Part shown: positions 1,825-4,020 of the stretch, in pieces
Numbering within the stretch: position 1 is the stretch's first letter
How the letters are laid out: every line of letters begins with the position of its first letter
Source: Verrucomicrobiales bacterium
GTDB lineage: Bacteria; Verrucomicrobiota; Verrucomicrobiia; Verrucomicrobiales; V1-33
Assembly (NCBI GenBank): GCA_947460575.1
Contig: CANHIJ010000003.1
Location: 1-64,000, forward strand
Reading direction: 5' to 3'
DNA: 64,000 nucleotides
Position numbers and translations under genes: made by a program
Notes under the pieces: model-generated
Database searches by the model: none
The model's input: the letters and a program-made list of their open reading frames with translations, nothing else
What the model was told of the DNA's origin: nothing

Positions 1825-4020
1825 ATGCCTGCCCGCCCTGTTTTGCCGTCTGCGCGGCTTTGCTGCGCCTGGTTTTTTCCGGGGTGGCGGCTCCGGGTGG
1901 CCGCTTGGCCGTGGCTGCTGCGGTGGCCGCTGCAGCTGGCGGTGGGGGCGACTGGCTTAGGGCTTGCCGCCATTTTGATAGGAGATTTAGCCTATCGTTC
2001 GCTGGCGCGGCGCTACGACTTGGATAGCCTGGGGCGGATGCCGGCGCGGAGCGAGGTGTACGACGCCCGCGGAGGGTTGTTGGGAAAGCTGCACGGGGAA
2101 GACCGCCGGGTGGTGCCGCTGAGCCAGGTGGCTCCGGATTTTATCAAGGCCTTGCTGGCGCGGGAGGACAGTCGGTTTTATGAGCACGGGGGGGTCGACC
2201 TGGTGGGGGTGGTGCGGGCGGTGGTGCGGACTCTGCAGGACCCCAAGGTGCGCCAAGGGGCGAGCACGATCACGATGCAGTTGGCTCGCAACAGCTTCGA
2301 CCTGACCCGGGAGAAGTCGCTCCACCGCAAGTTGTTGGAGATGGCCATCACCCGGCGGATTGAGGACCAGCGGAGCAAAGCGCAGATTTTGGAGCTGTAT
2401 GTGAACCGGATTTTTTTTGGTACGGGGCTTTTTGGGGTGGAGCGAGCGGCGGAGAGCTATTTTGGAAAATCGGCCCTGGGGCTGACTTTGGATGAATCGG
2501 CGATGTTGGCGGCGATTATTCGGGGGCCGAATGCGTTTTCTCCGTTCCGGCACTATGAAGTGGCGCGGAGCGGGCGGGACATGGTGTTGGATCGGATGGT
2601 GGCCACGGGGGTCTTGTCGGCGGCGGCGGCGGCGGCCGCCAAGCGGGTGAAAACCAAAGTTTTGGCGCCGCCGCAGGCGCCGCCGGACAGTTGGGCTTTA
2701 GATGCGGTGCGGCGGGATTTGGAAAAAGTGCTCGACCAGGGGGAAGTGGGGGAGGGGGGCTTGAAGATATACACTACCTTGGAGCCGGAGCTGCAGCGGG
2801 CTGCGGAGGAGAGCTTGAACCGGCAGTTGGCCGCGGTGGAGAAGGGGCCTGGCTACCCGCACCAGACGTGGGCCTTGTATGAGCGGCTGGTGCAGCGCGG
2901 TCTAGCGGTGGAGCCGGAGTACTTGCAGGGCGCGGTTATTTTGCTCGAAAACCACACTGGGGCGATCCGGGCGGCGGTGGGCGGCCGGGACATCCGGCAC
3001 AGTGGCACCAACCGGGCCCTGCAATCGCGGCGGCAGGTGGGATCGGCCTTCCAGCCCTTGGTTTACGCTGCCGCGGTGGAGCGGGCGGGCCTGTGGCCGG
3101 GACAGTTGATTTTCGACGGCCCCCTGTTGCCGGGGGAGGTGCGGGGGGAGGAAGGGCTCGTCAGTCCGGCGAATGCGGATGGGCGCTTTGGGGGATGGCA
3201 GTCGGCCTGGTGGGGCCTAGCGAAGTCGCGCCATACTATGGCGGTGCGGGTGGGGGAGTTGGCAGGGGTGGACCAGGTCAAGCAACTGGCGGCAGCGGCG
3301 GGGCTGTCGGGGATCGCGGGACGCTCGCCCCAGCTCTATTTGGGAAATCTGGGGGCTACGCTGGAGAGCTTGAGCAGCGCTTTTTCGCTTTTTGGAAATG
3401 GCGGGCAGCGCTGTCGGCCGTTTCTGATCGACCGCATTGAGACCGGCGAGGGCGAGCTCGTCTACCGCAGCGGGGTCATTGCCTACCCGGTGCTGAGCCC
3501 TGGCAGCGCGTGGTTGACGACGCGGATGATGGAGCAGGTGCTGGGGCCTGAGGGCACCGCGGCGGGGGTCCAGGGCTTGGGGTTTCGGGGGCTCGCGGCG
3601 GGCCAGACGGGCAGTGCAGACGATTTTCGCGACGCCTGGTTTATCGGCTACAGCACGGCGCTAACCTGTGGGGTTTGGGTGGGGCTGGACGATACCTCGC
3701 GCCGCGCTCCGCAAGGCTATGGAAGTCGCCTGGCTTTGCCGATATGGGCGGAAGTGATGGCCAGGGGCCCCGCGCTGGGCTATGCGGCGGGGGCGTCCTG
3801 GCCGTCGCCGGGGCCGGTGGAGAAAGTGGCGATCTGTGCGGTTTCTGGCCTGCTAGGATCGCCCGGCTGTGGAGGGGCGGCGGCGGAGGTGGAGCTGCCG
3901 AGCAGCCATGTGCCGCGGGAGGTCTGCCGCCACCAAGAGGGGCGCGGAGCGGCGGCGGGAGGGGCCGAGGAGCTGCGCCAGCCGGGGTTCTGGCAGCGGC
4001 TGGGGCAACGGTGGCGCTGA
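1825..4020 (+). CDS. Class A penicillin-binding protein with altered transpeptidase motifs
   Basis: A 731-residue inner-membrane peptidoglycan synthase. A membrane anchor lies at about residues 29-53. The GT51 glycosyltransferase domain is intact-looking, with EDSRFYEHGGVD at 114-125 and QGASTITMQLARN at 144-156. It is followed by a linker and a transpeptidase-like domain from about 365. The three transpeptidase motifs are all changed: SxxK reads SAFQ at 407-410, SxN reads SRH at 468-470, and KTG reads QTG at 594-596. The surrounding residues (GSAFQPLVYAAA, AKSRHTMAVRV, AGQTGSADDFRDAWFIGYS) align well with the family, so these are substitutions and not misalignment. I infer glycan polymerisation without normal cross-linking. 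The start at 1825 puts the hydrophobic anchor near the N-terminus. Confidence 0.85.
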   Translation: MPARPVLPSARLCCAWFFPGWRLRVAAWPWLLRWPLQLAVGATGLGLAAILIGDLAYRSLARRYDLDSLGRMPARSEVYDARGGLLGKLHGEDRRVVPLSQVAPDFIKALLAREDSRFYEHGGVDLVGVVRAVVRTLQDPKVRQGASTITMQLARNSFDLTREKSLHRKLLEMAITRRIEDQRSKAQILELYVNRIFFGTGLFGVERAAESYFGKSALGLTLDESAMLAAIIRGPNAFSPFRHYEVARSGRDMVLDRMVATGVLSAAAAAAAKRVKTKVLAPPQAPPDSWALDAVRRDLEKVLDQGEVGEGGLKIYTTLEPELQRAAEESLNRQLAAVEKGPGYPHQTWALYERLVQRGLAVEPEYLQGAVILLENHTGAIRAAVGGRDIRHSGTNRALQSRRQVGSAFQPLVYAAAVERAGLWPGQLIFDGPLLPGEVRGEEGLVSPANADGRFGGWQSAWWGLAKSRHTMAVRVGELAGVDQVKQLAAAAGLSGIAGRSPQLYLGNLGATLESLSSAFSLFGNGGQRCRPFLIDRIETGEGELVYRSGVIAYPVLSPGSAWLTTRMMEQVLGPEGTAAGVQGLGFRGLAAGQTGSADDFRDAWFIGYSTALTCGVWVGLDDTSRRAPQGYGSRLALPIWAEVMARGPALGYAAGASWPSPGPVEKVAICAVSGLLGSPGCGGAAAEVELPSSHVPREVCRHQEGRGAAAGGAEELRQPGFWQRLGQRWR

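Follow-up and report, generated by a model that had tools for sequence, protein, structure and literature searches.

Class A penicillin-binding proteins (PBPs) normally build sugar chains and also cross-link them, and are treated as bifunctional enzymes. Class A PBPs that are dead in their transpeptidase (TP) half are already known from engineering. The S510A variant of Escherichia coli PBP1b still polymerises glycan, and its glycosyltransferase (GT), an L,D-transpeptidase, and a D,D-carboxypeptidase together build the wall (PMC5089857). Genomes that carry a class A PBP gene are scored as having normal wall machinery, as was the case for Akkermansia (PMC8406291), and three class A PBPs are listed for Verrucomicrobium spinosum (PMC4803751). 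A search of open-access full texts, with most subscription journals outside its range, turned up no description of a naturally TP-dead class A PBP from Verrucomicrobia. Here, we describe a putative enzyme of this kind, encoded in a stretch of 64,000 nucleotides (the window) from a Verrucomicrobiales bacterium (GCA_947460575.1, contig CANHIJ010000003.1). The finding bears on the action of beta-lactams in this order.

The coordinates of the features are collected in the table below. Residues are numbered from the ATG at 1825; a longer frame opens upstream at 1600 (GTG). The PF00905 match covers positions 1-298 of the 299 in the Pfam model and lies C-terminal to GT51, which corresponds to a full-length TP domain. 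The GT51 motif residues E114-D115, S147-T148, K169, E172, and K185 are all present. On the NCBIfam model TIGR02074, the window protein scores 460 bits against a curated cut-off of 508.75; the intact congeners L006, L008, and L035 score 488-499, and a more distant intact ortholog (L017) reaches 526. The score on TIGR02070 (MtgA/MGT) is 127 bits against a cut-off of 182.65, and the protein carries a TP domain, so it falls outside the monofunctional GT51 enzymes.

Table. Coordinates and supporting details of the features discussed; positions without a contig handle refer to the window.
Feature	Location	Strand	Basis or remark
Class A PBP gene, PBP1A-type ortholog, 731 aa	1825..4020	+	ATG start 1825, stop TGA 4018-4020
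Predicted N-terminal membrane helix, residues 38-61	1936..2007	+	AlphaFold2 model secondary structure, hydrophobic sequence
GT51 glycosyltransferase domain, residues 85-258	2077..2598	+	PF00912, 192 bits
TP domain, residues 369-645, fold predicted to be retained, active site lost	2929..3759	+	PF00905, 49 bits
SxxK site, SAFQ (S407, K410Q), codons TCG GCC TTC CAG	3043..3054	+	Direct codon reading
SxN site, SRH (S468, N470H), codons TCG CGC CAT	3226..3234	+	Direct codon reading
KTGT site, QTGS (K594Q, T597S), codons CAG ACG GGC AGT	3604..3615	+	Direct codon reading
Metallo-beta-lactamase-fold hydrolase adjoining the PBP gene in both changed species	711-1811	-
Clade B paralog, locus L179, GTAFT/GKN/KTG	G000:C15:4008-6209	-	Second PBP1A-type class A PBP of the genome
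Clade C-type loci L183, L240, L255-L258, L185, L249, L184			About 580-680 aa; f2 genus, G191, G007 (the window's own family)
Genomes without a GT51 match			G037, G045, G053, G066, G069, G072, G075, G104, G117, G128

The codons confirm the motifs, residue numbers, and positions given in a preliminary description of the locus. That description was headed by the statement that all three TP motifs are changed, which holds for the loss of Lys410, Asn470, and Lys594 but not for Ser407 and Ser468, both of which are still present. The TP active site has been lost in the window protein, and the remainder of the domain has been kept. An alignment of 46 homologs drawn from many phyla shows no variation at S407 and S468, and conservation of at least 90% at each of K410, N470, and K594. 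At each of the three sites, the window codon can be derived by a first-position A-to-C difference (AAR to CAG, AAY to CAT, and AAR to CAG).

Orthologs were gathered from 37 genomes of the order, the family, and the named GTDB collection. Aligned with its homologs of the same class, the window protein stands out at the changed sites: 47 of the 49 family members with a TP domain, all Verrucomicrobiia orthologs, keep S/K/S/N/K and the SxxK, SxN, and KTG motifs, and the two exceptions are sister species. The congeners L006, L007, and L008 are intact and read STFK/SRN/KTG. The protein of the sister species (L005, on the same contig, CALQKQ020000142.1, as L034) comes from a separate MAG, is 79% identical, and reads SAFA/SRR/QAG, with T595A as an additional change; in the alignment of homologs taken from the named collection, L034 alone is changed. 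K594Q is common to both species, the other two sites differ (Q/H/Q against A/R/Q), and both serines are kept in each. Since the sister species is the only other one affected, and its residues are not the same, the change is a loss specific to this lineage with later drift and not a sequencing error. The loss is recent and, among the orthologs examined, confined to these two species, and the simplest history is one loss in their common ancestor with subsequent drift.

The downstream neighbors (a basic protein, an ABC ATPase, a class IV aminotransferase, and others) are common to all four congeners G001-G004; the gene is therefore the orthologous one and not a substitute. In the tree, the window protein lies inside the genus and groups with the sister species at 100 SH-aLRT. 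Synteny and tree together rule out a paralog or a horizontal replacement, and the open frame and a GT51 dN/dS of about 0.04 rule out a pseudogene.

To locate the changes relative to constraint, columns at least 93% conserved in the 47 intact orthologs were used, 56 of them in the TP domain and 51 in GT51. The window protein departs from none of the 51 GT51 columns, which bears out the earlier view that this domain is intact. It departs from five of the TP columns (K410Q, N470H, K594Q, T597S, and T598A), every one of them an active-site position. The hypergeometric probability that all five fall within nine active-site columns is about 3e-5, where the nine columns were chosen by us and include T598. 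The sister species is changed at 9/56 TP columns; T595A, D603G, and a short deletion spanning 448-450 are among these changes. By pairwise counts, the two changed species are 91.6% identical in GT51 and 74.8% in the TP domain.

Branch codon models on five congeners were used to estimate dN/dS, and the values are approximate because synonymous divergence is high and near saturation in some comparisons. For GT51, dN/dS was 0.046 in the changed lineage (foreground) and 0.047 in the background. For the TP domain, it was 0.083 in the foreground versus 0.028 in the background (P 0.015), and dN/dS = 1 was rejected (P 4e-36). With the two tips only as foreground, the values were 0.095 and 0.035 (P 0.014; dN/dS = 1 rejected, P about 2e-32), and after removal of nine active-site codons they were 0.085 and 0.035 (P 0.051). 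Thus, dN/dS of the TP domain rose about three-fold after the loss and stayed far below 1, and that of GT51 was unchanged. The TP domain is relaxed, with modest significance, yet it remains under purifying selection, as does GT51.

An AlphaFold2 model built from 46 sequences has a mean pLDDT of 85, mostly above 90 in the TP domain. Foldseek returned E. coli PBP1b and Acinetobacter baumannii PBP1A as the nearest solved structures. Whole-chain TM scores were modest (0.5-0.6), probably reflecting domain orientation over a long chain. Based on the high pLDDT and these nearest folds, the TP fold is expected to be intact in the window protein.

The explanation that we consider quite probable is that the window protein is a membrane-anchored class A PBP reduced to glycan polymerisation, with a folded, non-catalytic pseudo-transpeptidase. 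Its GT51 domain would polymerise lipid II like that of any class A PBP; the intact domain and its dN/dS of about 0.04 suggest that glycan polymerisation is retained. The TP domain would fold but could not take the acyl-enzyme step, because the SxxK lysine, the SxN asparagine, and the KTG lysine are gone, and it would neither cross-link peptides nor bind beta-lactams well. Some weak residual activity is conceivable on sequence grounds, as both species retain Ser407 and Ser468. The pseudo-transpeptidase may be kept because it supports the GT domain or contacts with partners, and new strands would be cross-linked by class B PBPs, the PBP1C-like class A protein, or YkuD-type L,D-transpeptidases. 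The scaffold role, the biochemical consequence, and the identity of the cross-linkers are what we infer from these data. The preliminary description had proposed that D,D-transpeptidation is abolished, which the missing active-site residues beside an intact GT51 support as the best reading. Of the fates it then offered, glycan polymerisation only is the one favored here; a different activity is without support, given that the two changed species carry different replacement residues.

A competing explanation, with a chance somewhat short of even, is that loss of the entire TP domain is under way in this protein: the activity became redundant, the active site is drifting, and the remaining constraint serves only folding and GT stability, with no new role. 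The three-fold rise in dN/dS fits this course, as does the more decayed TP domain of the sister species. The wider family also lends support. We surveyed 138 GT51 proteins, most of them from the class Verrucomicrobiia, and placed them on a quick LG+G4 tree with some long branches; this gave three PBP1A-type clades (A, B, and C). Clade A is the family of the window protein and contains 47 intact members, the two changed ones, and one GT51-only stump near a contig end. Its sister, clade C, has nine members with eroded TP domains that lack the SxN and KTG regions and keep GT51. GT51-only stumps also occur in the order, and of the 14 genomes sampled in other orders of the class, 10 gave no GT51 match. 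Against progressive loss stand a post-loss TP dN/dS of only about 0.08-0.10 and the retention of every conserved column outside the active site in the window protein.

Three GT51-only frames were recorded, L197 (276 aa), L260 (283 aa), and L266 (241 aa); the last two lie near contig ends, where truncation by the assembly is possible. On the quick tree, treating losses as irreversible gives a count of seven and unordered parsimony five changes, with one counted stump possibly cut by the assembly. These counts suggest that TP activity of class A PBPs was lost several times in the order. PBP1C-like proteins of the order were canonical in all eight surveyed.

Clade B, to which the second PBP1A-type protein of the window genome belongs, is found order-wide and has 61 members (including L101-L120 and L161-L179). 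Apart from two GT51-only stumps, all but L271 lack the serine or the lysine of SxxK. The replacement motif is mostly GTAFT or GTAxL, the KTG motif is mostly kept, and the TP domain is full length. Decay in this clade is graded, because four members (L238, L246, L253, and L272) keep the lysine with threonine in place of serine. L271 (G029), L272 (G035), and L253 (G189) combine SAFK or TAFK with SKN and KTG; these less decayed members could serve to order the steps of loss.

It is also conceivable, though unlikely, that the pseudo-transpeptidase has acquired a new regulatory role. It might, for instance, sense stem peptides or hold them, gate GT51, or recruit a class B PBP or an L,D-transpeptidase. 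The fold and the conserved columns are held under selection, and the clade B paralogs, with a full-length TP domain, a fairly constant GTA[F/V/I/L]-x motif, and a mostly intact KTG, look as expected of a retained non-catalytic function. Speaking against such a role, neither a partner nor a co-varying gene emerged, and Q/H/Q in one species and A/R/Q in the other give no common new residue set. Very unlikely is an altered rather than dead TP domain that is slowly acylated through an unusual base, such as His470 in place of Lys410: the two invariant serines in both species would suit it, but the sister species has Ala/Arg/Gln together with T595A (QAG) and hence no common alternative base. An assembly or sequencing error in one MAG can be practically dismissed, as the preliminary description had anticipated for sequencing error, even though the window genome is a draft in 216 contigs. 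The three first-position A-to-C differences lie apart from one another in a frame that stays open, the conserved GT51 columns are untouched, and the second species, known from its own independent MAG, carries other changes at these sites.

If the window protein is a glycan polymerase only, cross-linking would fall to other enzymes of the cell. The window genome encodes three GT51 proteins, namely the window protein, the clade B paralog, and a canonical PBP1C-like protein. In all, six TP domains are present, three of them in class B PBPs with SxxK and KTG, alongside nine YkuD matches (two weak) and SEDS proteins. In this genome, whose assembly is 89.6% complete, we found no PBP1A-type transpeptidase whose active site is normal, though a copy may have been missed. 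The sister species has the same enzyme set, with its PBP1C-like gene cut by a contig end. The PBP1C-like protein, the three class B PBPs, and about nine YkuD proteins are thus candidate cross-linkers. A compensating gain of class B PBPs, SEDS, or YkuD proteins was looked for and not found, since their counts do not exceed those of intact congeners; this speaks against the favored explanation. The hydrolase adjoining the PBP gene was also considered as a compensating beta-lactamase and rejected, as it most closely resembles organophosphorus hydrolases and acylhomoserine lactonases, and the intact congener G003 carries an ortholog at another location.

More tentatively, and with rather less confidence than an even chance would warrant, it might be proposed that Verrucomicrobiales repeatedly switched off the TP half of class A PBPs and kept GT51 and mostly the TP fold. 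The PBP1A-type enzymes would then be beta-lactam-insensitive glycan polymerases whose pseudo-transpeptidase has a non-catalytic task, and no PBP1A-type transpeptidase would be left in the lineage of the window. One genus and its order offer a natural series, from the intact enzyme through an erased active site with the fold kept and an eroded TP domain to the GT51-only stump. This series makes the coupling of GT and TP, and the role of a non-catalytic TP fold, testable.

Compared to PBP1A and PBP1B (E. coli PBP1b, 5hlb/3vma; A. baumannii PBP1A, 3ue1), the window protein has the same GT51 and TP architecture, N-terminal membrane helix, and overall fold, but the SxxK lysine, the SxN asparagine, and the KTG lysine are replaced, and the bifunctional label fails for this reason. 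The paralog of clade B is also a class A PBP that keeps GT51 and has lost the SxxK dyad; its loss is old and order-wide, with serine changed to threonine, lysine lost, and KTG mostly kept, whereas the window protein keeps both serines and has lost Lys, Asn, and Lys. With the monofunctional MtgA/MGT enzymes it shares the predicted activity, glycan polymerisation only, but it carries a full-length and still constrained TP-fold domain. It is expected to work like the engineered E. coli PBP1b S510A (PMC5089857), polymerising glycan without D,D-transpeptidation and leaving cross-linking to others; unlike that variant, it is natural and has lost Lys/Asn/Lys while keeping the nucleophilic serine.
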